Virus record (IMG/VR): IMGVR_UViG_3300005529_000009
Location: 1-64,000 of that record
Strand: one strand, 5' to 3'
Length of the DNA: 64,000 bases
Source of the DNA: a virus
Under the pieces are notes generated by a model, which saw only the letters and a program-made list of their open reading frames with translations, ran no database searches and was not told the DNA's origin. Position 1 is the first letter of the stretch. The number at the start of each line of letters is the position of its first letter. The position numbers were made by a program, and so were the translations under genes. Of the stretch, positions 22,271 through 55,591 are shown in pieces.

Positions 22271-23809
22271 TTAGTGGTAAGTCGGTCCGCCGAACGGCAG
22301 AACACGTGTGCGTACAATCACGTTTCGCAATTCACGCTCGCGTTCGATCTCGTTGACTAGTTCTCTGGTTCTGACAATCACATTACGGAGAAGCTGATTG
22401 ACGACCTGCGATGGGAGATAGAGGACCGCCGAACCGATTTGATGCCCGACCCATTCCGTTGCCGGTACCTGGTCGTACCGCCAGAATTTATGGAATGGCG
22501 GTGGAGGCGGTGGAATACGTTTAACGAACGGCGAGACCGGCGTGCCCTGCCAGAACTTGTCGGGTTCGTAGTCCCACCGCCAGAGTTTATTGAATGGTTT
22601 GTGGGCGAGTTGGCTAATGATATTCGAGGCGAGCGGGTTCCCAACCCACTCTGATGCTGGTACTTGGTCATAGCGCCATAATCTGAAGAACGGATTGCCC
22701 GATGGAGAAGTCGATGTTGGTGTGCTTCGCGGCGTACCGACCCAATCAGTCTGTTCAGGAATGCTGGACCACCACCCGGAGACAGGCGCGTAGAGTTGAG
22801 TAAGTTGCGGTAGCGTTATTGGCTGTGATAACGGCGCTCCGACCCACCACATATCGGTCGGTGGAGTGCCCACTACAACAGGTGGTCTTACTAGGGATGC
22901 CTGAACGACAGACGGGGGAATGGTCCCTATGCTTGTTGCTATAGGTTCGCCAAGCCAATCGGGTGTCGGTTGATAGTCGTATCGCCAGAATTTATAGAAT
23001 GGATTGGTTTCGGGAGGCCCTGCGGTATCCCAGTTACTCAACATCCATAATGGAACTTGCCATGGCGGATCTGGGACAATGTCGTATCTCCACAACTTGT
23101 AGAACGGTTGTGGGGTGACGTTGCGTAGCTGCTGGGAAATTCCCTCTGGTGTTCCTAACCAATCCGGTTGCGGTACGACGTCATAACGCCATAGTTTGTG
23201 ATACGGGGTCGCACTCAGTTCTATCAGAATGACGGACGATTGCGGCTCGCCCAACCAATCCGGCTGCGGAACGTAGTCCCATCTCCAGAATTTAGTGGGC
23301 GACGACGGCCGATAATCGAGTTGTTGTTGGGTGTAGGCCGATTGTGGACTACCGAGCCATAAAGCCGTGTCTGTTATTAAGTCATAGCGCCAGAGCTTGG
23401 AGAACGGTTCCGTTACCGGAAGATACAGGGTGTCCGCGTTTTCCCAAAAGTTCGGATACTGCCAATCTGTCGGCGGAACGTAGTCATACCGCCAGAGTTT
23501 CGAGAATGGCTTAACGATCGGCAGATACAGCGCGTCGGCATTTTCCCAGAAATCAGGAAACTGCCACGGCGGAAACTCGGCTCCTCTTTGGGTGTAGAAC
23601 GGTGCCCGCGCATTCGGGATATTGAGCGCAATATAATTGGCATTCGCGCTGGACCATGGATAAGTCCACGGCGGATCTGAAACATAATCATATCGCCAGA
23701 GCTGTTTATTCTTCGGCTTTCCTGTCAGAAGCTGGAGGGCGGACGAGCCCGGTGTCGTCCATTGCCAAATACGAGCTTCAGGTGGGCTGGGCGCATAAAA
23801 TTGGGTCAC
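22271..23809 (-). CDS. WRYD-repeat tail-region protein, 512 aa
   Basis: Start is GTG 23809, overlapping the upstream stop as GTGA. The protein is built from at least ten imperfect repeats of about 30-40 residues with the core [KR][LF]WR[YW]D followed by a Pro/Trp segment (for example SKLWRYDYVPPTDW, KFWRWDYVPQPDWLGEP, RLWRYDQVPASEWVGNP). Aromatic residues make up an unusually large share. The last 45 residues are helical and Arg-rich (RNVIVRTRELVNEIERERE) with RNVIVRTR repeated. It sits among tail fibre genes. I do not recognise a named family. Aromatic repeats could bind sugars or stack into a fibre. Confidence 0.75.
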   Translation of the reverse strand: MTQFYAPSPPEARIWQWTTPGSSALQLLTGKPKNKQLWRYDYVSDPPWTYPWSSANANYIALNIPNARAPFYTQRGAEFPPWQFPDFWENADALYLPIVKPFSKLWRYDYVPPTDWQYPNFWENADTLYLPVTEPFSKLWRYDLITDTALWLGSPQSAYTQQQLDYRPSSPTKFWRWDYVPQPDWLGEPQSSVILIELSATPYHKLWRYDVVPQPDWLGTPEGISQQLRNVTPQPFYKLWRYDIVPDPPWQVPLWMLSNWDTAGPPETNPFYKFWRYDYQPTPDWLGEPIATSIGTIPPSVVQASLVRPPVVVGTPPTDMWWVGAPLSQPITLPQLTQLYAPVSGWWSSIPEQTDWVGTPRSTPTSTSPSGNPFFRLWRYDQVPASEWVGNPLASNIISQLAHKPFNKLWRWDYEPDKFWQGTPVSPFVKRIPPPPPPFHKFWRYDQVPATEWVGHQIGSAVLYLPSQVVNQLLRNVIVRTRELVNEIERERELRNVIVRTRVLPFGGPTYH

Positions 23810-24477
23810 ATGAAGATCATTTGCGTTCCGGGCGGAACCGGAGAAGCTTTGAATGTCGCCATGATTGTGTTCATTACTTTTGTCGAGAAGGACGGAGACC
23901 AAGAGACCGCCGCAGCGGAATTGACTATTCGGTAGGCAAAATCAACGCCAGAGTTACTTGTTACCGGATTGCCTGTTAATTCGGTCCAATTCGAATCCTC
24001 GGTGTAGGATGAAATGGTACCGTTATACTCGAATGTTGCAAAACAAATTTCATTCGGCACACTAAGCGATGGACTGGTCAAGGTGAATGTCGTGCCGGAA
24101 GGTTGGGCCGCGGCCGCCACTTGATCGGCACCACCATTCGCGCCACTGACAATCGCGGCTCCGTTTGGAAACCAGTTTCCTCCACTAGTCGTCGCTGTAA
24201 ATGTGCTGCCAATCGGCAGATCGGCGGCCAAATTAACGAAGTACCACAATTCTATGCTTGGATAAGACCCTGTACCGATGCTTCTGGTCGCCAGACTATA
24301 CGAGTTGCTGTTCGAATCGACTAAAGTGGAAATAGTGGCCCCCGTGCTCGTGCCGTAAAGAGAGAGGACGACTAGGGAGCCACTCGGTGCATCTGCTGTC
24401 GTCGCGGCTGAAGCACTGCCGCTGGCAATGGACGCCGTCGGGGCATTCAAGATAAGTTGCGGACTCCCGATAGGCAT
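23806..24477 (-). CDS. Beta-sandwich tail protein, 223 aa
   Basis: A Ser/Thr/Ala-rich, beta-strand protein (PSGSLVVLSLYGTSTGATIS, WYFVNLAADLPIGSTFTATT, EICFATFEYNGTISSYTED) of the kind found in phage fibre or decoration domains with Ig-like folds. It lies between the glycosidase gene and the WRYD protein. No enzymatic motif seen. Confidence 0.6.
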   Translation of the reverse strand: MPIGSPQLILNAPTASIASGSASAATTADAPSGSLVVLSLYGTSTGATISTLVDSNSNSYSLATRSIGTGSYPSIELWYFVNLAADLPIGSTFTATTSGGNWFPNGAAIVSGANGGADQVAAAAQPSGTTFTLTSPSLSVPNEICFATFEYNGTISSYTEDSNWTELTGNPVTSNSGVDFAYRIVNSAAAVSWSPSFSTKVMNTIMATFKASPVPPGTQMIFM

Positions 24478-27650: not shown

Positions 27651-27992
27651 TTAGATTTGAACTATCGCGATTTTCCGCAGATAGTTTTCAATCCGTTGCT
27701 TGAACGGAATGCATTCATGCGTAAGCTTGAAATTCACTGCGCAATTATCACAAATGTACTTGTCGCACTTTGGACAGGTATTGCGCGGACGAACACGGTC
27801 GGGCCGAAGAACTATTTGCTTCTGACAGTGCGAGCAGGACTTGGTTCCCGCCTCGAACTTCTTTCCCTTGCCGAAAATCTCATGGGCGTGGAATGGAATA
27901 CCGCCCTTCAGACACTGCGCTTCGGTAAGTCCGGGACTTTCCGAGTGGTCGATTAAGAGGTAGCTTTCGCCGTCGTTACGCCGCCTGGGCAT
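27651..27992 (-). CDS. Zinc-finger phage protein, 113 aa
   Basis: Contains GESYLLIDHSESPGL, then KSCSHCQKQIVL, NTCPKCDKYICDNC and a final HEC: three Cys pairs plus His, enough for two zinc ions. I recognise the overall pattern (short acidic opening, SCSHCQ, CPKCDKYICD) from structural regions of many alphaproteobacterial phages. Role unknown; it overlaps the upstream gene by 17 bp. Confidence 0.7.
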   Translation of the reverse strand: MPRRRNDGESYLLIDHSESPGLTEAQCLKGGIPFHAHEIFGKGKKFEAGTKSCSHCQKQIVLRPDRVRPRNTCPKCDKYICDNCAVNFKLTHECIPFKQRIENYLRKIAIVQI

Positions 27993-29049
27993 CTTTTTGC
28001 TTTAGCTCTTCCCATCCAGCGACCAGGTTCTCGAATGTGTCTTTCTTCCAGAGAAAGCGCTGATCAGGCCGCGCCCACGGGAATTGCTCACCAATCTTGA
28101 CCCCGTGGCAATCGCGCCAGAATAACCCGGTATTCGGTTCGTAATCCGGCCCGATGTCGGTAGGAACCACTTCAACCCAAGGAAAGTCACTGAACTGACA
28201 TAACGCAATCGGGCCGTTGGCAATCAGCCAATTAGTCTTGGCTTCCTGATAAGCGGCCATACGGCAGTGCAAGTCCTTGGACGCATCCGGCCATGTCTCC
28301 CAGCGCCCTAACGGTTCATCGGCCTTCGCGGTATCTCGAATGAAGACTACCTTCTCGCCCTGCTCTTGCAGGTACCGGCCGAATCTCGTCCATGCTTCAA
28401 TGTTGCTATTACGCGCCGGCCAATGGTCGGCTTCTCGCAAGGTAATAGTGACATAACCGGGAAATTTTGACCGCTTGGTCGTCCGAAGTTTCGGTATCTT
28501 CTGCCCGACCTGCCACGCCATCACAATCTCGCGGGCGACAAACATTTCTCTACGAGTACCGTAAATCGCTTTCTCGTCCTCTACCGCGCCGATAAGAGAC
28601 AGCGCCGGTCTAAAAACGTTATTCAGCCACGCCATTCGATTAGGATCGGACTTGGTTCTTTCAGGATCGGCACCGAACCAGAACCCGACTTTCAATGGGG
28701 CGGGTGCCCCTTCCCGCACCCTTTGCATCTCCGCAGTAATCAACCAAACGATAAAATCAAAGCCAAGTGGATCATGGGCCATCGAGTAGACCACATGACT
28801 GACATCAAGGCTCGGATCAGGTTTAGGCAGCGACCAATTCAGGATCGAGGCTTCCAACCGTTTCCGCAATGCAGTTATTGCCTGATACGCCGCACGCTCT
28901 AAATGAATAACCCCCGCATAATCCGCACAAGCAATTCTGTCATCTTCGGCGTCAATCATAACAACCGAAACGTGATCGAACCGCCGAGTCTTGGCGAGAT
29001 AGTAATAGTTCTCCAGGATTTCGAGGATTTCAGGACTGGACTCAGGCAC
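27976..29049 (-). CDS. Paralogue A of a two-copy protein family (possible glycosyltransferase-like)
   Basis: 357 residues from GTG 29049. It shares a clear core with the 29629-30666 product: PGY[VI]TITLREADHW, then [NR]S..[NL].W..FGRYL and [FW]..NGP[IV][AS]L..FSD[FA]PW. The order of strands and the NGP-SL-FSD element suggest a nucleotide-sugar-type enzyme fold, but no diagnostic motif is complete. The pair flanks a methyltransferase gene. Function inferred only as possible glycan or protein modification of the virion or host surface. Confidence 0.6.
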   Translation of the reverse strand: MPESSPEILEILENYYYLAKTRRFDHVSVVMIDAEDDRIACADYAGVIHLERAAYQAITALRKRLEASILNWSLPKPDPSLDVSHVVYSMAHDPLGFDFIVWLITAEMQRVREGAPAPLKVGFWFGADPERTKSDPNRMAWLNNVFRPALSLIGAVEDEKAIYGTRREMFVAREIVMAWQVGQKIPKLRTTKRSKFPGYVTITLREADHWPARNSNIEAWTRFGRYLQEQGEKVVFIRDTAKADEPLGRWETWPDASKDLHCRMAAYQEAKTNWLIANGPIALCQFSDFPWVEVVPTDIGPDYEPNTGLFWRDCHGVKIGEQFPWARPDQRFLWKKDTFENLVAGWEELKQKDAQAA

Positions 29050-29632
29050 GATAGAGAATCCCGATCCCCATCAAAGAATCCTCGGTAATGATTTCCTCGT
29101 GGCGATATTTACGTTTGATCTCTTGCCACAAACGGGGGACATCAACCGAAAGCCCATCGTGCGATTGCACTTCGGAAGGCGCCGCGATGTCATGCAAAAC
29201 AACCATCCGTGCCATTGGTGAATAGAACAGGAAGTCCCGCTTTACGGCCTCGTAGCTGTGGTCCGCATCAATAACCACGGCGTGATAAGGGGCGTGCTCA
29301 CTTACCCGCTTGATGACTTCCGCCGCACTACTCGGCCCAAAGACCGCGCTGACATCCCGGCCGATGGATTTAAGCCTCTTTAATGCAGCCAGGAGGATCG
29401 CCGTAGAACCATCATCGCCAAAAGGACCGCCGGGAAAATCCACGGCAACGCCTCTTGAACCCATGGGCAACGCTTGCATAATCCGTTCAAAGCTGCCCCC
29501 ATACCGCGCTCCGATTTCCAGATAGGAGCGAACCCCCTCCCTCTGAAACACTTCAATCAGGCGATCAAGCTCGTCGGGATGCTGTAGCGGTTTGGCGTAG
29601 GACTCATTGGCAATGCCGGGAAACATATTCAT
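29042..29632 (-). CDS. SAM-dependent methyltransferase
   Basis: 196 residues from ATG 29632 (ATGA overlap). Motif I is YLEIGARYGGSF, followed by RGVAVDFPGG, and the post-II region VVIDADHSYEAVKRDFLFYS with MVVLHDIAAP, the order seen in class I methyltransferases related to CmcI/TylF-type and rhamnosyl O-methyltransferases. Sandwiched between the two paralogues at 27976 and 29629, it may methylate the product of their reaction. Confidence 0.75.
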   Translation of the reverse strand: MNMFPGIANESYAKPLQHPDELDRLIEVFQREGVRSYLEIGARYGGSFERIMQALPMGSRGVAVDFPGGPFGDDGSTAILLAALKRLKSIGRDVSAVFGPSSAAEVIKRVSEHAPYHAVVIDADHSYEAVKRDFLFYSPMARMVVLHDIAAPSEVQSHDGLSVDVPRLWQEIKRKYRHEEIITEDSLMGIGILYRA

Positions 29633-30666
29633 GCGGCGCTCACCAATTTCGAGTCCCACGCCGCTACCAAGTTCTCATATGTATCCGGCTTCCAGATAAT
29701 ACGCTGGTTCTGTTTCGCCCAAGGATACTGCTCCCCGAAGGACATGCCCGCAGTTTTCTGCCAGAAATCCTCCGCCTCCTTTGGATCGATCGTTACGAAT
29801 TGCATCCACGGTGCGTCGGAAAAGACGGCTAGACTCACTGGCCCGTTGGAAACAAAGAAGTTCATCTTCGCTTCGTCGTATAGGGCTAGACGGTCCTCCA
29901 AGTTGACAGAGGCCTCCGGGCAGGTCTTAAGACCGCGGAATGATTCAAATGCCTTGCTCGTATCGCGAACAACAACGACCTTTTCCCCTACACCCTCGAG
30001 ATACCGCCCGAACTGATACCAGTCGTTCAATCGGCTATTGCGTTCCGACCAATGATCGGCCTCGCGGAGCGTAATAGTGATGTAGCCGGGGAAGAGAGAT
30101 TTCTTGCTCGGGATGAATTTCGGGACTTCTTCACCATCCCGCGCCGCTTGAACCACGTCCTTGACGACGTAGCTTTCCTTGTACCAGCCGTGCGGGTCGG
30201 CAACCTCAACCCCGCCGAACATCTTTAACAGCGGCCGGAAGATATTATTGAGGTAGTTTTGTCTTGCTTCCCGCTGCGGAATCCCGTCCGGGTTTCTTCC
30301 CTCCCAGAAGCAGACTTTCAAAGGACCGTCAGCCTTGAAGCGCTTTCGGGTCATTTCCGCGTTGATCAGCCAGACCAGAAAATCGAACCCCAGCGGACAC
30401 GTCAGCATCGAGTAGACAAAGTAGCTGGCGTCGAGAACCGGATTTCTGGGAGGAAGCATCCAGTTTTCCATCGACTGCCGCAATTGACCGCCGATGTTTG
30501 TTATGGCCTCCAATAAGAGATATTGCATGGTGATGTGGCCGCCATGCCCGCCATAGGGCACGCCGGTTTTCCCCACCATCGTCACCGCGGCGGCTTCGTA
30601 GGGGTTCTTTTTGGCTTCGTCCAGATAATGCTGGAGAAAGTCAACAATCTGCTGATTGGCTGCCAC
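29629..30666 (-). CDS. Paralogue B of a two-copy protein family (possible glycosyltransferase-like)
   Basis: 345 residues. Shares the core FPGYITITLREADHW and the C-terminal YPWAKQNQRIIWKPDTYENL with 27976-29049 (there FPWARPDQRFLWKKDTFENL). The N-terminal parts differ more. Duplication followed by divergence is the simplest origin. The substrate is not known. It is preceded by the structural protein 30691-31197 and coupled to the methyltransferase by ATGA. Confidence 0.6.
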   Translation of the reverse strand: MAANQQIVDFLQHYLDEAKKNPYEAAAVTMVGKTGVPYGGHGGHITMQYLLLEAITNIGGQLRQSMENWMLPPRNPVLDASYFVYSMLTCPLGFDFLVWLINAEMTRKRFKADGPLKVCFWEGRNPDGIPQREARQNYLNNIFRPLLKMFGGVEVADPHGWYKESYVVKDVVQAARDGEEVPKFIPSKKSLFPGYITITLREADHWSERNSRLNDWYQFGRYLEGVGEKVVVVRDTSKAFESFRGLKTCPEASVNLEDRLALYDEAKMNFFVSNGPVSLAVFSDAPWMQFVTIDPKEAEDFWQKTAGMSFGEQYPWAKQNQRIIWKPDTYENLVAAWDSKLVSAA

Positions 30667-47466: not shown

Positions 47467-48081
47467 CTATACGGCCTCTATCTCACTTACCGGCAATTCC
47501 CATTCCCGCACTGCACCAAAAAACTGGGCCTCCACTACGATTTTAGTCTTCGAGGCAATGCGCTTGATTTTGCCGTCCAACTCTACCCTTCTGATTCGCA
47601 CTTTTTGGCCTTCCTTGAACGGGATTCCTTCTGCGGCTGCAATGGCCGAGGCATTCAACGCGGCCTCGATTTCCTTGATGCGCTCAATGCCTTGCCTACC
47701 GTCTTCAGGCAATTCTACCAAGTTCTCGCCGTTTCGCATAATTCGCCGCGCTCCTGGCGCGCTCTCGATTAAGTCGCAATTTATGGTCTGCAATATCGGT
47801 ATCGGGATAAACAGATAACCCGGGATAACGCTCCGCCAGCGCACTTCCGTCCGATGACGGTTTAACTTTACGAAGCCTTTATAGCGGGGCCAGTACGGCT
47901 CGTATTGCCTTCTACGTAGCCAAATACAAATCCGGCGCTCTCTACCGCTCTCCACCAAAAGAGCGTACCAGCGGCGCGGTAAATCGGTTCCAGGCAATAA
48001 TTCCGCGCTCTCCTCGACCTGATAGCGCAAGACGGCCTCAAGCAGTAATGGTTTTTGTGTCAATGCTAGTGCCCCGTGCAT
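47467..48081 (-). CDS. NusG-like transcription antiterminator
   Basis: 204 residues; AAGGGGGA precedes ATG 48081. The NGN-like domain reads RRWYALLVESGRERRICIWL, then RRRQYEPYWPRYKGF and SVIPGYLFIPIPI, matching the W-Y-x-L, P-x-x-x and G-Y-(V/L)-F-(V/I) pattern of NusG/RfaH. A KOW-type end follows: IPFKEGQKVRIRRVELDGKI with TKIVVEAQFFGAVREWELPV. It probably rides on RNA polymerase to carry it through the very long late operon. Assignment strong at the domain level; antitermination role inferred. Confidence 0.85.
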   Translation of the reverse strand: MHGALALTQKPLLLEAVLRYQVEESAELLPGTDLPRRWYALLVESGRERRICIWLRRRQYEPYWPRYKGFVKLNRHRTEVRWRSVIPGYLFIPIPILQTINCDLIESAPGARRIMRNGENLVELPEDGRQGIERIKEIEAALNASAIAAAEGIPFKEGQKVRIRRVELDGKIKRIASKTKIVVEAQFFGAVREWELPVSEIEAV

Positions 48082-48365: not shown

Positions 48366-48879
48366 GCGATAACGAATGCCACTTACCTGGCTTTGGTGAC
48401 TCGCAGTAGAACAGCAGATGTGAAATCCAGATGCCTCCATCGCCCCACTTCCAATCCGCTTCATCGGCGGTTTCACTGATAGCCACACAGCGTTCGTAAT
48501 GCTTGTTTCCGATCGGAACAAAAGCCTTCGCGCGACGACCAGGTGAGCGGTCTACGAATCGCGTCAGCCGTTGCATCTTCGGCATGGCTGCATAGCGGCG
48601 CTGGGTCGCTAGCCTGTTCCGCTCCGCATCGCATGCGTCCACCACTTCAGCGATCGTCGGCGGCCACTTGGTGCGCCGCTGCAAGCCCTTTCGCGGGTCC
48701 GTCACAGCGATAATCACATCGTCCTCGTAGCCTTCCAGAACCACGCCAAGCTGCACAACGAACCCCTCTGGATCAGCAAAATCATCCTTTCGGTAGGCTG
48801 AGAAAAGGATTTTCACTTGGCGCTTGATCAGCGTCGCCTTCAGGGAGTTTGTCGATCGCGTCGAGGATAGAGCGTCCAT
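48355..48879 (-). CDS. Replication-region protein, 174 aa
   Basis: Homology-like core: QVKILFSAYRKDDFADPEGF, VIIAVTDPRKGLQRRTKWPP and TIAEVVDACDAERNRLATQR. I recognise it as a conserved partner following DnaD-like replication proteins in rhizobial phages, possibly a helicase-loading or inhibitor-like protein. The ATG 48879 gives a long overlap with the upstream gene; GTG 48816 (VKILFSAYR) is an alternative start. Confidence 0.6.
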   Translation of the reverse strand: MDALSSTRSTNSLKATLIKRQVKILFSAYRKDDFADPEGFVVQLGVVLEGYEDDVIIAVTDPRKGLQRRTKWPPTIAEVVDACDAERNRLATQRRYAAMPKMQRLTRFVDRSPGRRAKAFVPIGNKHYERCVAISETADEADWKWGDGGIWISHLLFYCESPKPGKWHSLSHGS

Positions 48880-49588
48880 TGCCGTTAACTCGTTGTGTGG
48901 GTTGCATTTGCAGCGGCGAACGGCACCAATTGCGCCACGCCGCATTCCAATCGGCGTAGGTTTTTTTATGCGCCTTCGCGTAGTCGAAAAACCGTTGAAT
49001 TTCTTGGTTTATTCGCGATTCCGGCCAACCCATTGAGCGCGGCAATTCACGATCAGGGTTGAAAATGGCCGGCAATTGCGTTTTTGGTTTTCGCCGCCCA
49101 CTAGCTTGCTCCTCTTGAGTTTCCTCTAGGTCCAAAGAGGTAGCCGAGGAAGAGCTAGAAACTATATTCCATTGGGCTTTATCCTCCCCGTTATCGGGTG
49201 GCTTAAGAGGGGGGTTAACCCCCCCGTTATGGGCAGACTTTAATTTGGGATTACCGCCCCCTTTACCGTTCTCGCGATCCTGTTGCTCTCTGAGGTTATC
49301 CCGCACCATTCGACGCGAATAAATAATACCGTCCTCCGTTCGGCTGAACACTCCATGCTTTTCAAGCTCGCTCATAGCTTTCTTCACTTCGGCTACAGGA
49401 CGAGCGAGTTGCAGCGCGAGTTCATCTATCGGCATGTCGCCGCCCTCAAAGACCAGATGACCGTATGGCTCGGCTTCGTGCATGTATGTCATTAGGTCGA
49501 TCCAAAGCCCGCGCGCGGACAAGGAACACCGGCGTAACTGTTTGTCTCGCCAGTCGGCGACATAGAACTTGAGCCAGGGTCGAATCAA
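48782..49588 (-). CDS. Replication initiator-like protein with winged helix
   Basis: 268 residues from TTG 49588, which overlaps the HNH stop as TTGA and has GGGAG seven bases ahead. The N-terminus LIRPWLKFYVADWRDKQLRR and LWIDLMTYMHEAEPYGHLVF is that of phage replication proteins with a winged-helix domain (DELALQLARPVAEVKKAMSE). A low-complexity Asn/Ser/Glu linker follows, then a DnaD-like helical C-terminus (FDYAKAHKKTYADWNAAWRN). Probably opens the phage origin or loads helicase. Confidence 0.75.
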   Translation of the reverse strand: MIRPWLKFYVADWRDKQLRRCSLSARGLWIDLMTYMHEAEPYGHLVFEGGDMPIDELALQLARPVAEVKKAMSELEKHGVFSRTEDGIIYSRRMVRDNLREQQDRENGKGGGNPKLKSAHNGGVNPPLKPPDNGEDKAQWNIVSSSSSATSLDLEETQEEQASGRRKPKTQLPAIFNPDRELPRSMGWPESRINQEIQRFFDYAKAHKKTYADWNAAWRNWCRSPLQMQPTQRVNGNGRSILDAIDKLPEGDADQAPSENPFLSLPKG

Positions 49589-49914
49589 AAAGCCGCTCCC
49601 TTCGCGGAGTTGCACGGCGAACAAAGTGGCTGAAGGTTATAGATACAGTCACATCCACCACGGGAAACTGGGTGGATATGGTCTTTGACCAAGGGTAAAT
49701 CTGTGCGACCGCATTCAACGCATTTGGCTATCTTATCTCTCAAGGCGATCCATTCTTGCTTAGTGTGAGTTCCGCGCGCTCGCGCTTGAGCCATTCGGAA
49801 TTTACGCCAATCACTTGGCGTGCAATTCCAAGGTTGTACTTTCCCATCGTAGCCATAGGCCCTGACAGGAAATTCTTCGCTCAACGGCCAGGGAGGCGTC
49901 CAAGGACGGTTCAT
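49585..49914 (-). CDS. HNH endonuclease
   Basis: 109 residues. CVECGRTDLPLVKDHIHPVS with GGCDCIYNLQPLCSPCNSAK holds two Cys-x2-Cys pairs, the catalytic His in DHIHP and the Asn, the canonical zinc-stabilised HNH (McrA-type) finger. It differs from the three AP2-type HNH proteins and looks like a resident phage nuclease, perhaps used in replication or packaging. Confidence 0.85.
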   Translation of the reverse strand: MNRPWTPPWPLSEEFPVRAYGYDGKVQPWNCTPSDWRKFRMAQARARGTHTKQEWIALRDKIAKCVECGRTDLPLVKDHIHPVSRGGCDCIYNLQPLCSPCNSAKGAAF

Positions 49915-50318
49915 GCTTTAAGGACTCTCTCCAGTTCGATAAGCTCGCGATCAAGCGCTTCATCGGTTTTCCGAAGCGCAGCAATTTTTCTAAATGCGTG
50001 AAGGCAGGTGGTATGGTCCCGCCCTCCTAAGCCCCTGCCCATTTGCGGAAAGCTCATCGGCGTTAGAGTGCGCGCGAGATAGAACGCCACATGCCGAGGC
50101 CGTAGACATTCAAAAGTCCGACGCACACTCACCAGGTCGTGATATGTCACATCATAAAATCTACAAACCGCATCAGCGATTTGCTTGAGCGTCGGATATG
50201 GCCGCTCCGGCTCTTTCCTAAGTTCTGCTATTTCAGCAGAAAGTGCCGCAATGACGCCTTGGCTCAATTCCAGCTTCCTTTTCGTAATAGCCAATTCCTC
50301 TTCCAGCGATGCGGGCAT
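49911..50318 (-). CDS. DnaA domain IV protein (DNA-binding half only)
   Basis: 135 residues from ATG 50318 (TGATG). The C-terminal half is an almost canonical DnaA domain IV: IADAVCRFYDVTYHDLVSVR, RPRHVAFYLARTLTPMSFPQ and GRGLGGRDHTTCLHAFRKI, including the GGRDHTT signature that reads DnaA boxes. The N-terminal part is a coiled coil (EEELAITKRKLELSQGVIAA) in place of the AAA+ ATPase. It could compete with or recruit host DnaA at DnaA boxes. Confidence 0.85.
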   Translation of the reverse strand: MPASLEEELAITKRKLELSQGVIAALSAEIAELRKEPERPYPTLKQIADAVCRFYDVTYHDLVSVRRTFECLRPRHVAFYLARTLTPMSFPQMGRGLGGRDHTTCLHAFRKIAALRKTDEALDRELIELERVLKA

Positions 50319-50566
50319 CACTCCACCACCCAATCAATCTCCGGCACCAGATTGTCACACAACGGCCGGATGTCCTTCATTGTCGGCTTGCAGACACACT
50401 CATCACTCACCTGGCACCACGTGTAGGCTATCTCCTCCCAGCTCTTGGCTTGATGCTGGAGATAGGTGATTTCAGTCTGTGCTCGCTTTAAGCGGATGTG
50501 CTCAAAGAGGAATAGTGTTGTTTGCCCAATTAAAGCCAGAGCAATGAGCGTGAGTGCGAAGGTCAC
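50318..50566 (-). CDS. Single-TM protein with Cys-rich periplasmic tail, 82 aa
   Basis: Start GTG 50566 overlaps the GcrA stop as GTGA. One N-terminal TM helix (TFALTLIALALIGQTTLFLF) is followed by a short coiled coil and YTWCQVSDECVCKPTMKDIR with four cysteines in total. Function unknown. Confidence 0.55.
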   Translation of the reverse strand: MTFALTLIALALIGQTTLFLFEHIRLKRAQTEITYLQHQAKSWEEIAYTWCQVSDECVCKPTMKDIRPLCDNLVPEIDWVVE

Positions 50567-51210
50567 CTGAATCCCCACGGCACATACGAATCATGCCGAT
50601 ACGCGGTCCTGGTATGATTCAAACAGTACGGCCGACCGCTGGTCATGTCGGCGGTCGGACAACCGCAAAAGAAAAAGTCGGGTTGCCCCGGCTCGCCATA
50701 GGGAAACCGGCAGCTACAGTTCTCCAACTCCATCAGCGTCTTGCGTTGGGAAACTGGAATGTCAGCGGGGGAAAGATTTTCCTCGACCGGCAGGAAAACA
50801 GAATCGATTATTCGGTGAGAATACGCACCCCACCGGATCAACCGTTGCACCTTTTCAGGCTGCGCTCTCTTGACTCTGACTTTCTTCGGTCGTGCTTCCA
50901 GCTTTTTTATCTTTTCGGATACACGCTCCGGCCGGATGCCTAATGCCAAAGCAATTTCTGTAACTGATTTTCCTTCGGCTTTAAGTTCTTTGAGAAGTTT
51001 AACCCGATCCGGGAACCAAATGCTCTTGACGACATTAGCTAGTCGTATGCCTCGCCTATTACATTGGCCGATGATAGCGTTCCTCGAGACGCCCATTTCC
51101 CGGCCGATTTCGCTGGCAGACAATCCCTGCTCAGCAAAAATCTTTAGCTGATTGATCCTCTCATCGGACCAGGTGACACGTAAGTCTCTTGGCTCGTAGG
51201 CGAGCGCCAT
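50563..51210 (-). CDS. GcrA-family cell-cycle regulator homologue
   Basis: 215 residues. The N-terminus VTWSDERINQLKIFAEQGLS and ASEIGREMGVSRNAIIGQCN RRG is the GcrA DNA-binding helix-turn-helix (family W-T/S-D-E-R-V/I). A second HTH follows (RVKLLKELKAEGKSVTEIAL). The C-terminus carries NCSCRFPYGEPGQPDFFFCG and GRPYCLNHTRTAY, the metal-binding sigma70-interaction region of GcrA. Host GcrA binds RNA polymerase sigma70 and activates promoters at methylated sites. Probably reprograms host transcription. Confidence 0.85.
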   Translation of the reverse strand: MALAYEPRDLRVTWSDERINQLKIFAEQGLSASEIGREMGVSRNAIIGQCNRRGIRLANVVKSIWFPDRVKLLKELKAEGKSVTEIALALGIRPERVSEKIKKLEARPKKVRVKRAQPEKVQRLIRWGAYSHRIIDSVFLPVEENLSPADIPVSQRKTLMELENCSCRFPYGEPGQPDFFFCGCPTADMTSGRPYCLNHTRTAYRHDSYVPWGFR

Positions 51211-51273
51211 AGCCCCTCTCTGTCCGGCCCCTCAGCCGGGGTTAATTAACTCAGGCCGTTTTAACTGCTAGAA

Positions 51274-51654
51274 TTATCCATCGACTTCACACAGGTTTCT
51301 GAACGCAAACTCAAAACTCGTCAGTTCAAGGTCTAGTAGGCTGTCCTTTGTTCGGAGTTGTTCGATTATTCGAATACCGCGCAGAACGGTCGTGCTCCTT
51401 CGATCAAACCTTCGCGCGATAGCCGGATAGGTAAGTCCCGTTAGTTCCTTAGCCAGATACATCGCTATTCTTCGCGCCCGCACGATTTTCTTGTGGCGCT
51501 CTTTGGATTCGATGTCGGCTAGAGGAATCCAATAATATGCCGCTACCGCCCGCTTTATTTGTTTGATGGACAATGGAGCGACACAATTGACGGCAATCTG
51601 CGGCGGGATGCCCAAGAGCTTGTGCCATTCGATGTGCGTGGTGTGGAGGCTCAT
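51274..51654 (-). CDS. Second DnaA domain IV-like protein
   Basis: 126 residues from ATG 51654 (ATGA overlap with the methyltransferase stop). SIKQIKRAVAAYYWIPLADI, RARRIAMYLAKELTGLTYPA and FDRRSTTVLRGIRIIEQL follow the DnaA domain IV plan (R-x-I-A-M-Y-L-x-x-x-L-T). The box-reading signature is changed from GGRDHTTV to DRRSTTVL, so it should recognise a different sequence. No ATPase part. Confidence 0.8.
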   Translation of the reverse strand: MSLHTTHIEWHKLLGIPPQIAVNCVAPLSIKQIKRAVAAYYWIPLADIESKERHKKIVRARRIAMYLAKELTGLTYPAIARRFDRRSTTVLRGIRIIEQLRTKDSLLDLELTSFEFAFRNLCEVDG

Positions 51655-52379
51655 TGCGGCCTCACAAAAGGATGGGCCAGCACTTGGGGAATGCTGGCCC
51701 GCTGCCGCCTGCTGTTTTCGAGGGGCTGGCGACAGGTCAGGATAGAATTGAGTGCAGCACGGCCAATGTAATCGGCATATGCTGGCGGTATTGCTTGCGA
51801 CAACTCCATGCCGCTCATCCAATCAATGTCCATCGCTTGCCGCCGCTCTTCAGTCGAATAATCCTGGGTATTGGTTTTCCGCCGGCGATCACGCCCGTGG
51901 CCTCCATAAACGCCAATAACACGCGCTCGTTGACCATGGCGGCAGAAACGGATCGGTATTAGAAAGTTTGCTTCAATGTGGCGATGTCGCCAGATCTCGG
52001 CGTCGTCTGTGCCGAGGTCAAATTGCGTTCCGCAAAGCATGATGGAAGATCGCAACGGTGCCCCGACCACATTTTCTATTGCGAACAGCTTGCCGCTCGT
52101 CTCCAGAAGATCTCTGGTCGGCGGAATCAAATCAGGGTGCTTCTTGGCATTCCATGCGGATTTGAGATCTGAATGCGCCTGGCACGGCGGACTCGCCCAA
52201 ATGAAATCGAACTCATCCAGGTTAAGCGGCGGCCGTAGAGCGTCGGCTTGTATGAAAGCATCGCCGCAATATCGTCGCTGCGGCTTGATATCGATCCCGG
52301 TAACGTGGAAGCCCGCACGCTGCAGACCTTTGGTCGCGCCACCCGCACCGCAAAAAAGATCGAGGGCGCGGGGTTTCAT
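51651..52379 (-). CDS. DNA (cytosine-5) methyltransferase
   Basis: 242 residues from ATG 52379. Motif I ALDLFCGAGGATKGLQRAGF, then VTGIDI, motif IV ASPPCQAHSDL with the catalytic Cys near residue 66, motif VI FAIENV, and the late motif SQAIPPAYADYIG. Short for the family, with a small target-recognition region. No cognate restriction enzyme is next to it, so it is an orphan: protection from host restriction or regulation of promoters. It lies beside GcrA and DnaA-type genes. Confidence 0.9.
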   Translation of the reverse strand: MKPRALDLFCGAGGATKGLQRAGFHVTGIDIKPQRRYCGDAFIQADALRPPLNLDEFDFIWASPPCQAHSDLKSAWNAKKHPDLIPPTRDLLETSGKLFAIENVVGAPLRSSIMLCGTQFDLGTDDAEIWRHRHIEANFLIPIRFCRHGQRARVIGVYGGHGRDRRRKTNTQDYSTEERRQAMDIDWMSGMELSQAIPPAYADYIGRAALNSILTCRQPLENSRRQRASIPQVLAHPFVRPQ

Positions 52380-52899: not shown

Positions 52900-53619
52900 T
52901 CACGCACTCACAAACTCCCGCTTAGCCTTTTCAGCGCGGGCAATAATCAATGCTGTCTCTATAGGTTCGGCTTGACGGCCGATTTTCAGCGCCGCGTCGA
53001 GAATGATGGTCGCTGTCGTCCAGACCTTTCGGGCGTCGGCGGCGTCGGCGGCGTCGGCGGCGTCGGCGGCGGCGTAGGCGGCGGCGTAGGCGGCGTCGGC
53101 GGCGTCGGCGGCGTCGGCGGCGGCGTAGGCGGCGGCGTAGGCGGCGGCGTAGGCGGCGGCGGCGGCGTCGGCGGCGGCGGCTCGCAAAGCATCGCACGCC
53201 TTATTCGCCGCAGCATGCGCTTCAACTCGCGTCTCGACGCGGTCGCAAATCAGCGCATAGTCTTCAAGTCGATGGAGCCGAAGAACAATCGGCAAAATAT
53301 CGCGAACGGTGTGAACAGCAATCAAATCGGCGCGTTGACGTTCAATTGCTTCTGTGTCCGCCGTTCCTGCCAGGCGCACGACAAACGGGGTGAGCAATTC
53401 TTGACGCAGTTCATCAGACATGCGGTCGTTAAGAGCAAGCGCGTAAGCGGAAATCGGCCGAGAAAAGCATTTTGGCAAATCATCAATTTTTCGGACTTCA
53501 CGATACTTGAAACCTGCCACGACCAGCGCAGCTTCATTGATGCACGTCCCGCCATCAGGACCAGGAAATTTGTGCGAACCTTTTAACAAGCGCCATTTCA
53601 GAAGATCATGCAGTTCCAT
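52900..53619 (-). CDS. Conserved phage protein with Ala/Asp/Tyr repeat, 239 aa
   Basis: Start ATG 53619 overlaps the stop of the small membrane gene (TAATG). The N-terminal 130 residues are conserved: MELHDLLKWRLLKGSHKFPG, GGTCINEAALVVAGFKYREV, then SRPISAYALALNDRM and LRQELLTPFVVRLAGTADT. I recognise this family from many rhizobial phages; function unknown. Residues about 150-200 are a DNA-level triplet repeat encoding AADAADAAYAAAYAAADAAD-type Ala helices. Confidence 0.75.
   Translation of the reverse strand: MELHDLLKWRLLKGSHKFPGPDGGTCINEAALVVAGFKYREVRKIDDLPKCFSRPISAYALALNDRMSDELRQELLTPFVVRLAGTADTEAIERQRADLIAVHTVRDILPIVLRLHRLEDYALICDRVETRVEAHAAANKACDALRAAAADAAAAAYAAAYAAAYAAADAADAADAAYAAAYAAADAADAADAADARKVWTTATIILDAALKIGRQAEPIETALIIARAEKAKREFVSA
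53032..53181. repeat. 150-bp GC-rich tandem repeat inside the Ala-repeat gene
   Basis: Units of GGCGTC, GGCGGC and GGCGTA alternate without interruption and never break the reading frame of the minus-strand gene (Ala, Asp and Tyr codons). Such repeats are prone to change in length by slippage in multiples of 3. Confidence 0.85.
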
Positions 53620-53729
53620 TACTCCCCCCAAATGTCCGGCGTGTTTCTCCACAACATCAACGCAACAAACAACATGCTCGGCGTCAGCGCGACCTCAATC
53701 CAAAAGAGGATCGCTTGCGCCGTGGTCAT
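53619..53729 (-). CDS. 36-aa membrane peptide
   Basis: MTTAQAILFWIEVALTPSML followed by FVALMLWRN: one TM helix and a short tail. The stop overlaps the ATG of the next gene (TAATG). First or second gene of the leftward early operon, after the Cro-like gene. Function unknown. Confidence 0.6.
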   Translation of the reverse strand: MTTAQAILFWIEVALTPSMLFVALMLWRNTPDIWGE

Positions 53730-53784: not shown

Positions 53785-54045
53785 TCATGACGCGGCTCGC
53801 TGTTCTTCGGAGAGAGGAAGGAAGTCTTCGGCTTTCAAATCGATTTTGTGAGTACGTGCGTATTCGAGCAGCGCAACATGATGCCGCTGCGGAATAAGTC
53901 CATCAGTACCGCCCCTGCCCCGGGCATACTGCCAACTATAGGGAGCCGTTAAACCAGCACCGGTGATCTCTGAAACCTTGGCCTCCCCGCCAAGCTTTTG
54001 AACAATCTCGGAAGCCGGATTAAGCCGTTCTTGCCGCTGTTTCAT
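53785..54045 (-). CDS. Cro-like DNA-binding protein
   Basis: 86 residues. NPASEIVQKLGGEAKVSEIT with GAGLTAPYSWQYARGRGGTD and GLIPQRHHVALLEYARTHKI is a phage helix-turn-helix of the Cro/YdaS-like type that uses IPxxxxxxLL to close the fold. It faces the S24 repressor gene across the operator region. On induction it should block repressor synthesis and permit the leftward operon. Confidence 0.75.
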   Translation of the reverse strand: MKQRQERLNPASEIVQKLGGEAKVSEITGAGLTAPYSWQYARGRGGTDGLIPQRHHVALLEYARTHKIDLKAEDFLPLSEEQRAAS

Positions 54046-54055
54046 GCAGCGGTAA

Positions 54056-54072
54056 TTTCGGATTTTCCGAAA
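54056..54072 (-). promoter_or_regulatory. Operator O1 within the leftward promoter
   Basis: TTTCGGA-TTT-TCCGAAA, a perfect 7-bp-arm palindrome. It sits in the spacer just after a minus-strand TTGACA (54077-54082). Repressor bound here would block the Cro-like promoter. Confidence 0.75.
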
Positions 54073-54076
54073 CGAT

Positions 54077-54082
54077 TGTCAA
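54077..54082 (-). promoter_or_regulatory. -35 box of the leftward promoter
   Basis: Minus-strand TTGACA, a consensus -35. The candidate -10, 17 bp away (GAAATT, 54054-54059), is weak. The order -35, palindrome, -10 is the same as at the rightward promoter at 55563. Confidence 0.55.
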
Positions 54083-54088
54083 GCCAAA

Positions 54089-54104
54089 TTTCGGATATTC
54101 GTAA
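54089..54104. promoter_or_regulatory. Operator-like half site O2
   Basis: TTTCGGATATTCGTAA: the left half matches O1 exactly, the right half only partly. Position between O1 and O3 gives the three-site arrangement of lambdoid operators. Confidence 0.45.
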
Positions 54105-54112
54105 TTGCCGTC

Positions 54113-54129
54113 TTTCTGAAAAACAGAAA
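54113..54129. promoter_or_regulatory. Operator-like palindrome O3
   Basis: TTTCTGAAAAACAGAAA, 17 bp like O1 and fitting TTTCnGAnnnnCnGAAA. It ends nine bases before the repressor ATG at 54139 and could mediate autoregulation. Confidence 0.6.
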
Positions 54130-54138
54130 GAATTGGCA

Positions 54139-54693
54139 ATGGACATTGAAGCGATTGCGGAAGCGTTTAGAAAAACCGGCAAGAAGAAAAGCGACCTCGC
54201 CAAAGTTCTTGGGATCAGCCCATCAGGCGTAACAGACATTCTTGACGGAACGCGAAAGATAAAGCTCCACGAGGCCCCTAAGATTGCCGCCTTCTTCGGG
54301 TGGGGAACCGTCCAGATCGTCGGAATTGTCAGGGCCGGGGGGGAGGCCGTTTATCCCCAAGAGGCCAATCTGGGGCTCGTAAAGGCGATTGACGGCACAG
54401 GACCCAATACCGTGGCAGTCGAAATCCAAGGCACAAGTATGGGAACCGAGCTAGACGGGATGATCGTATACTACAACGATGTGCGACATCCGCCTACCGA
54501 CGATCTCCACCGCCAACTATGCGTTATTGGCCTTTCTGACGAAAGAATTGTCCTCAAAAAGCTCGTCCCGACGCGGCGCAAAAAGTTTTTCAATCTCCTA
54601 TCGACCTCTTCCGATCCGCTTTTGGACAAGGAGGTAGAGTGGGCGGCTAAAATTGTCGGGATTTTACCGTCCAGCTTAGTCAAAATCGATTAG
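54139..54693 (+). CDS. S24 (LexA/CI-type) phage repressor
   Basis: 184 residues. N-terminal helix-turn-helix KKSDLAKVLGISPSGVTDIL; the self-cleavage site candidate is Ala66-Gly67 in IVRAGGEAVY; the catalytic dyad is Ser100 in QGTSMGTE and a Lys at 140 or 141 (RIVLKKLVP). RecA-triggered autocleavage would induce the prophage. ATG 54139 is chosen over the earlier frame because it begins the HTH and lies after O3. It is divergent from the Cro-like gene. Confidence 0.9.
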   Translation: MDIEAIAEAFRKTGKKKSDLAKVLGISPSGVTDILDGTRKIKLHEAPKIAAFFGWGTVQIVGIVRAGGEAVYPQEANLGLVKAIDGTGPNTVAVEIQGTSMGTELDGMIVYYNDVRHPPTDDLHRQLCVIGLSDERIVLKKLVPTRRKKFFNLLSTSSDPLLDKEVEWAAKIVGILPSSLVKID

Positions 54694-55538: not shown

Positions 55539-55555
55539 TTTCGGAATTTCCGAAA
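55539..55555 (+). promoter_or_regulatory. Operator O4 upstream of the rightward promoter
   Basis: TTTCGGA-ATT-TCCGAAA, a perfect 17-bp palindrome, same arms as O1. It lies seven bases before the -35 box at 55563. Confidence 0.75.
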
Positions 55556-55562
55556 TTATCTC

Positions 55563-55591
55563 TTGACCTTTTTCTGATTTTCCGAAATAGT
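55563..55591 (+). promoter_or_regulatory. Rightward early promoter with operator O5 in the spacer
   Basis: TTGACC (55563-55568) and AATAGT (55586-55591), 17 bp apart. The spacer holds TTTCTGATTTTCCGAAA (55571-55587), the fifth copy of the operator motif. Drives the plus-strand early operon starting at 55620. Confidence 0.7.

Follow-up and report, generated by a model that had tools for sequence, protein, structure and literature searches.

IMG/VR virus record IMGVR_UViG_3300005529_000009 was analysed over its positions 1 to 64,000 (hereafter the window), nearly all of the 64,826-base record. Pfam and PHROG profiles and the open reading frames reveal a minus-strand cassette that encodes, in this order, a C5-type DNA methyltransferase, a stand-alone DnaA domain IV protein (DnaA2), a GcrA-family protein, an 86-amino-acid protein and a second stand-alone DnaA domain IV protein (DnaA1; Table 1). 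These curated profiles confirm an earlier reading made from the bare letters (the sequence-only reading), which had placed a GcrA gene, a methyltransferase gene and two DnaA halves without ATPase at this locus. Beyond that reading, we find the small gene between GcrA and DnaA1, a second helix-turn-helix (HTH) in GcrA, and the continuation of the cassette into genes for an HNH endonuclease and a replication-initiator-like protein. Our comparison shows that GcrA and DnaA domain IV genes are a real and recurrent gene pair of phages, which is newly described here: phage GcrA has been in the literature since 2012, phage DnaA domain IV has been annotated sporadically; the literature that we found does not describe both as a pair.

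DnaA domain IV and GcrA proteins of the cassette

Both DnaA proteins belong to the domain IV family Bac_DnaA_C, as indicated by profiles for both and by the fold for DnaA2, and neither has an AAA+ domain. They score 94.5 and 83.9 bits against the full-length DnaA model TIGR00362 (cut-off 343.9), with matches covering just the final ~97 of 437 positions, and are thus not full-length DnaA proteins. Being domain IV only, they have neither the ATPase nor the helicase-loading part of that protein. The AlphaFold model of DnaA2 (predicted local distance difference test, pLDDT, 91.4) resembles the E. coli domain IV-DNA structure 1j1v with a template modelling (TM) score of 0.90. Compared with E. coli DnaA, the window proteins have this fold in common, and DnaA1 also the GGRDHTT reading motif, but they are devoid of domains I-III, and DnaA2 carries DRRSTTV where GGRDHTTV is expected; both motifs are as the sequence-only reading had quoted them. 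In E. coli numbering, D433, H434 and T435 are all kept in DnaA1 and T435 only in DnaA2 (D433R, H434S). In 1j1v, D433 and H434 are known to contact bases of the DnaA box. Arg-Ser at these two positions occurs in DnaA2 alone and in none of ~160 other aligned relatives, a rarity that rests mainly on the second of two scans, in which the motif was not demanded, as the first had demanded a DHTT-like motif. Of these relatives, one has His instead of D433, and three rows, two of which are the same phage, have Arg instead of H434. Some other phages with two DnaA domain IV genes likewise combine one canonical with one altered copy (L062/L063, L284, L312), and one has two canonical copies (L273). These pairs and the D433R/H434S replacements fit the earlier proposal that the two proteins likely read different sites; if so, DnaA1 would be expected to recognise TTATCCACA and DnaA2 a site of a different motif. 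Chromosomal stand-alone Bac_DnaA_C proteins (PRK06030/NF004688) are also domain IV proteins without ATPase, but the window proteins differ from them, with scores of 34.9 and 29.1 bits where the cut-off is 136.

With 119 bits in Pfam PF07750 (cut-off 26.9), the GcrA-family protein is a member of its family; with 76.6 bits against the 280-bit cut-off of the NCBIfam equivalog NF050816, it stays below GcrA in the strict sense. Profile matches in the PDB are to the DNA-binding and sigma70-interacting domains of Caulobacter crescentus GcrA (7ye1, 5yiu, 5yix). A first HTH spans residues 12-55, a second approximately 65-107, and the sigma70-interacting domain approximately 157-206. Across this last part, the predicted structure has a pLDDT of ~94 and superimposes on 5yix_B (Foldseek) with a TM score of 0.83 and a root-mean-square deviation of 1.1 A over 48 residues. 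The phage protein retains the sigma70-interacting domain along with a good DNA-binding HTH, and a second HTH is inserted. It shares with C. crescentus GcrA an N-terminal HTH with a (S/T)RNA(I/V)IG helix and a C-terminal sigma70-interacting domain with conserved C-P-G-P, FCG, PYC and H positions, and differs by the inserted HTH, the lower equivalog score and its location in a phage operon. Double-HTH GcrA proteins also occur elsewhere (L054, L059), and that of Brevundimonas phage Bajun looks alike in this respect. GcrA homologues are known in phiCbK-like phages (Gill 2012, PMC3556154). These and Bajun have a phage-encoded GcrA in common with the window but are large phages; the regions that we fetched from them contain no annotated DnaA gene, and three phiCbK-like-sized records scanned (G014, G023, G025) contain no Bac_DnaA_C domain.

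GcrA and DnaA domain IV genes are paired in phages

Stand-alone DnaA domain IV proteins are encoded in at least 445 viral contigs; the annotations of Rhizobium, Sulfitobacter and Pelagibacter phages name them, and Bradyrhizobium phages carry them without such a name. Loci were picked by DnaA domain IV similarity alone in two scans of 80 each and fall into 97 single-linkage clusters at 70% identity (one holding 33 members), of which two are the window's own, leaving 95. In 15 of the 95, the fetched stretch contains a GcrA gene with the sigma-interacting-domain motif, always on the same strand as the DnaA gene. Ten of these 15 adjoin it directly (within 100 nt), where uniform placement, which ignores gene packing and shared ancestry, would give 0.4 and a rough gene-rank estimate ~1.5. 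Nine of these GcrA proteins exceed the Pfam cut-off. Because the paired loci contain head, portal and terminase genes, they are phages, and since some have GcrA upstream of the DnaA gene and others downstream of it, the pairing does not go back to a single inherited layout. Its recurrence in many unrelated viruses may point to a common means of redirecting gene expression or replication in infected cells. As a control, an adjacent GcrA gene was found in none of 20 stand-alone DnaA domain IV loci on alphaproteobacterial chromosomes. The excess of adjacent genes, their shared strand and the empty control all speak against the explanation that separate early genes were brought together by phage gene shuffling, without any functional link; it is improbable, even though early phage operons are mosaics and most DnaA domain IV loci have no GcrA.

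Scans of viral contigs with DnaA2 alone and with the terminase alone yielded no relatives, and the cassette could therefore not be traced in sister phages. Among named phages, Sulfitobacter phage phiGT1, Rhizobium phages RHph_N28_2 and RHph_TM3_3_3 and Pelagibacter phages share domain-IV-only early genes with the window, and in phiGT1 this region further encodes a C5 methylase, an HNH protein and a NusG/RfaH-like protein. They differ in that GcrA is not annotated beside the DnaA gene and that DHTT is kept where aligned.

A putative fusion of DnaA domain IV with a GcrA HTH (L114) was weak (E=9e-4 in a custom profile, no Pfam GcrA match) and was not used. IMG/VR records of ~100-130 kb with GcrA were discounted, as the co-occurrence of GcrA and DnaA_C in them is probably host sequence: the 132-kb record L018 and a Bradyrhizobium chromosome contig (L133) are one and the same stretch, with the host gcrA, and the other records look alike. 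Long DnaA-like proteins of 407 and 446 amino acids are encoded in two prophage-like records (L077, 9059-10279; L284, 8957-10297), with a P-loop visible in L284 and a GcrA gene directly after the long gene in L077. GapR-like (DUF2312) genes adjoin phage DnaA domain IV genes in 5 of 123 neighbours scanned (L053-L132), which adds a third host chromosome regulator to these neighbourhoods.

The cassette lies in a probable repressor-controlled early operon

By its layout, the cassette belongs to a repressor-controlled early operon in a phage that is probably temperate: its genes are closely packed and divergent from a CI-like repressor gene with palindromic sites. Start and stop codons overlap at the methyltransferase/DnaA2 junction (DnaA2 ATG with methyltransferase stop), at GcrA/86-amino-acid gene and 86-amino-acid gene/DnaA1, and at DnaA1/HNH (HNH ATG with DnaA1 stop); DnaA2 and GcrA are separated by 63 nt. 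The palindromes TTTCGGANNTTCCGAAA, one between the repressor gene and the leftward operon and two ahead of the rightward genes, are thus located at both early promoter regions and are likely candidates for repressor operators. Profile searches also found an integrase gene in the window, which together with the repressor makes a temperate lifestyle most likely. The 86-amino-acid protein has no family match in Pfam and PHROG profile searches, and the replication-initiator-like protein matches no Pfam family above cut-off.

Table 1. Genes and sites of the early region
Feature	Position	Strand	Length, matches and remarks
C5-type DNA methyltransferase, small	51651..52379	-	242 aa from ATG 52379; 247 aa from TTG 52394; PF00145, phrog_363
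DnaA2, stand-alone DnaA domain IV	51274..51654	-	126 aa; PF08299 (Bac_DnaA_C) 1.2e-21
GcrA-family protein	50563..51210	-	215 aa; PF07750 3.2e-34
86-aa protein, membrane-like	50318..50578	-	N-terminal hydrophobic stretch (judged by eye)
DnaA1, stand-alone DnaA domain IV	49911..50318	-	135 aa; PF08299 1.7e-22; 1j1v match 1e-16
HNH endonuclease	49585..49914	-	PF01844 3.2e-10
Replication-initiation/replisome-organiser-like protein	48782..49624	-	phrog_1408 2.3e-10, phrog_1032 4.1e-6, phrog_186 2.3e-5
NusG-like transcription elongation factor	47467..48081	-	PF02357 5.2e-9; same direction as operon
CI-like repressor	53998..54693	+	HTH_3 1.5e-5; phrog_4 transcriptional repressor 5.6e-7; divergent from early operon
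Palindromic operator-like site TTTCGGATTTTCCGAAA	54056..54072	.	between repressor and early operon
Sister sites of this palindrome	55539-55555, 55571-55587		

The early operon also includes a gene (52900-53652) that has no family match and contains a tandem repeat of 9- and 12-base units, strongly Ala-rich and of AADAAYAA-type.

The methyltransferase and the DnaA-GcrA-CcrM circuit

The sequence-only reading had proposed that the cassette copies the DnaA-GcrA-CcrM circuit of the host and may steer host replication timing or transcription. Three gene classes are indeed co-located, and other phages are known to encode CcrM-like enzymes and GcrA (PMC3556154, PMC9437464), which have been considered hints that phages take an interest in the cell cycle of their hosts (PMC9437464). 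The methyltransferase of the window, though, matches the Pfam C-5 cytosine methylase family (5.1e-7; 29.9 bits, cut-off 22) and phrog_363 (DNA methyltransferase, 7.9e-35), and has no N6_N4_Mtase match in Pfam and PHROG, the family expected of CcrM, which methylates N6-adenine in GANTC. GcrA, by contrast, responds to N6-methyladenine (PMC3667746, PMC7403470). The methyltransferase is matched by 299 phage records, mostly phages of Mycobacterium, Streptomyces, Paenibacillus and Arthrobacter (39-43% identity in the best rows). Its C5-type family and the predominance of actinobacteriophages among its relatives speak against it as the CcrM counterpart; it is probably an independent neighbour of the GcrA and DnaA genes, from a generic family that is widespread among phages whose hosts are unrelated. 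A mimic of the full circuit is therefore very improbable, while the part of the proposal that concerns GcrA and DnaA is strengthened by the sigma70-interacting fold and by the recurrence of the pair.

Target sites and possible roles of the module

Our searches of the window for DnaA boxes, iterons and a GANTC regulon revealed no target sites. The window contains no exact DnaA box, which alone is weak evidence as 0.25 would be expected, and neither the window nor its tail contains a cluster of relaxed boxes (TTWTNCACA or TKATCCACA). Three or more relaxed boxes within 500 bases were found in none of 91 phage loci with DnaA domain IV, and no iteron array lies near the replication-initiator-like gene. 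GANTC is the most avoided of 16 palindromes of the same form in the window (observed/expected 0.45), which fits a GANTC-methylating host; the host is probably an alphaproteobacterium of this type.

The missing box clusters disfavour a DnaA-type phage origin and thereby weaken the main rival interpretation, a phage replication module in which DnaA1, perhaps with DnaA2, recognises the phage origin, the replisome-organiser-like protein recruits the host helicase, and GcrA and the methyltransferase are incidental. The replication-initiator-like gene two genes downstream of DnaA1 would suit such a module, as would the DUF1376, replisome-organiser or recombination genes beside or near DnaA domain IV genes in Rhizobium and Bradyrhizobium phages and in one phage from Manatee Spring. 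In viral contigs, too, the neighbours include DUF1376 and RusA, besides methyltransferases of several kinds. Nevertheless, the direct adjacency of GcrA in many phages would be left unexplained, and we consider this module possible but rather unlikely.

Alternatively, the domain IV proteins might occupy the host oriC and DnaA-regulated promoters, where they would block host DnaA and halt or desynchronise replication, with GcrA redirecting sigma70. An ATPase-less DnaA is plausibly dominant-negative, and DnaA1 retains the box-reading residues in a phage without exact boxes of its own. The low expectation for such boxes makes the latter a weak argument, and DnaA2 has lost the conserved reading residues; such a takeover by competition seems unlikely.

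We tentatively favour a third interpretation, namely that GcrA and the DnaA domain IV proteins, encoded in a repressed early operon, form a phage regulator of transcription and replication rather than a copy of the full host circuit. Such a regulatory module would probably act by recruiting sigma70. Beyond domain identity and gene neighbourhood, its workings are what we infer: after induction, GcrA would bind the host sigma70-RNA polymerase, and its HTHs would choose the promoters, possibly helped by a DnaA domain IV partner. DnaA1 would occupy DnaA boxes, most likely those of the host, because the phage has no box clusters, and DnaA2 would read a site other than that of DnaA1. Two phages (L084, L092) encode a GcrA reduced to the sigma-interacting domain, with a stop codon just upstream, whose gene overlaps the DnaA domain IV gene, as if the latter supplied DNA binding. 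A bolder and rather doubtful extension is a two-protein switch of Alphaproteobacteria phages, in which the domain-IV-only DnaA would provide sequence recognition and GcrA the sigma70 contact; the arrangement in these two phages would be its minimal form, and the second DnaA domain IV protein of the window, with its altered head, would serve a second promoter set.

Several observations weigh against the favoured regulator. GANTC sites show no enrichment in intergenic stretches (26 of 123 sites, with 21% of the window called intergenic), and a phage regulon of a methylation-reading GcrA is therefore not visible. HTH-only GcrA-like neighbours of DnaA domain IV genes (L064, L122) are at odds with a simple split-activator scheme. 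Furthermore, GcrA is missing from the surroundings of most phage DnaA domain IV genes, whose neighbours are replication and recombination genes, so that a pure replication role is possible. The sequence-only reading had named as grounds against itself a GcrA gene lacking the sigma70-binding residues, together with the sharing of its DnaA-like proteins by unrelated clusters outside the cell cycle: the latter half is borne out by these neighbourhoods, whereas the sigma70-interacting domain is kept.

The recurrent gcrA-dnaA(IV) pair could help to decide if phages hijack the cell-cycle machinery of Alphaproteobacteria or build private regulators from its DNA-binding parts. Natural domain-only variants, such as the sigma-interacting domain alone or the altered-head DnaA domain IV, could be used to probe how each part works.

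Other features of the window

Near the left end, three copies of AGGTTGAGGAAACTCAATAAAGCCC (1293-1317, 1860-1884, 2665-2689), which are 80-96% alike, each contain a small inverted repeat such as TTGAG-GAAA-CTCAA. In the structural region, a 543-amino-acid protein (22271-23902) comprises at least eight repeats of ~33 amino acids (KLWRYDxVPxPxWLG). Two look-alike genes for proteins of ~350 amino acids (27976-29049 and 29629-30666) lie either side of a methyltransferase-like gene (29042-29659), and this group is possibly a sugar-modification cluster.

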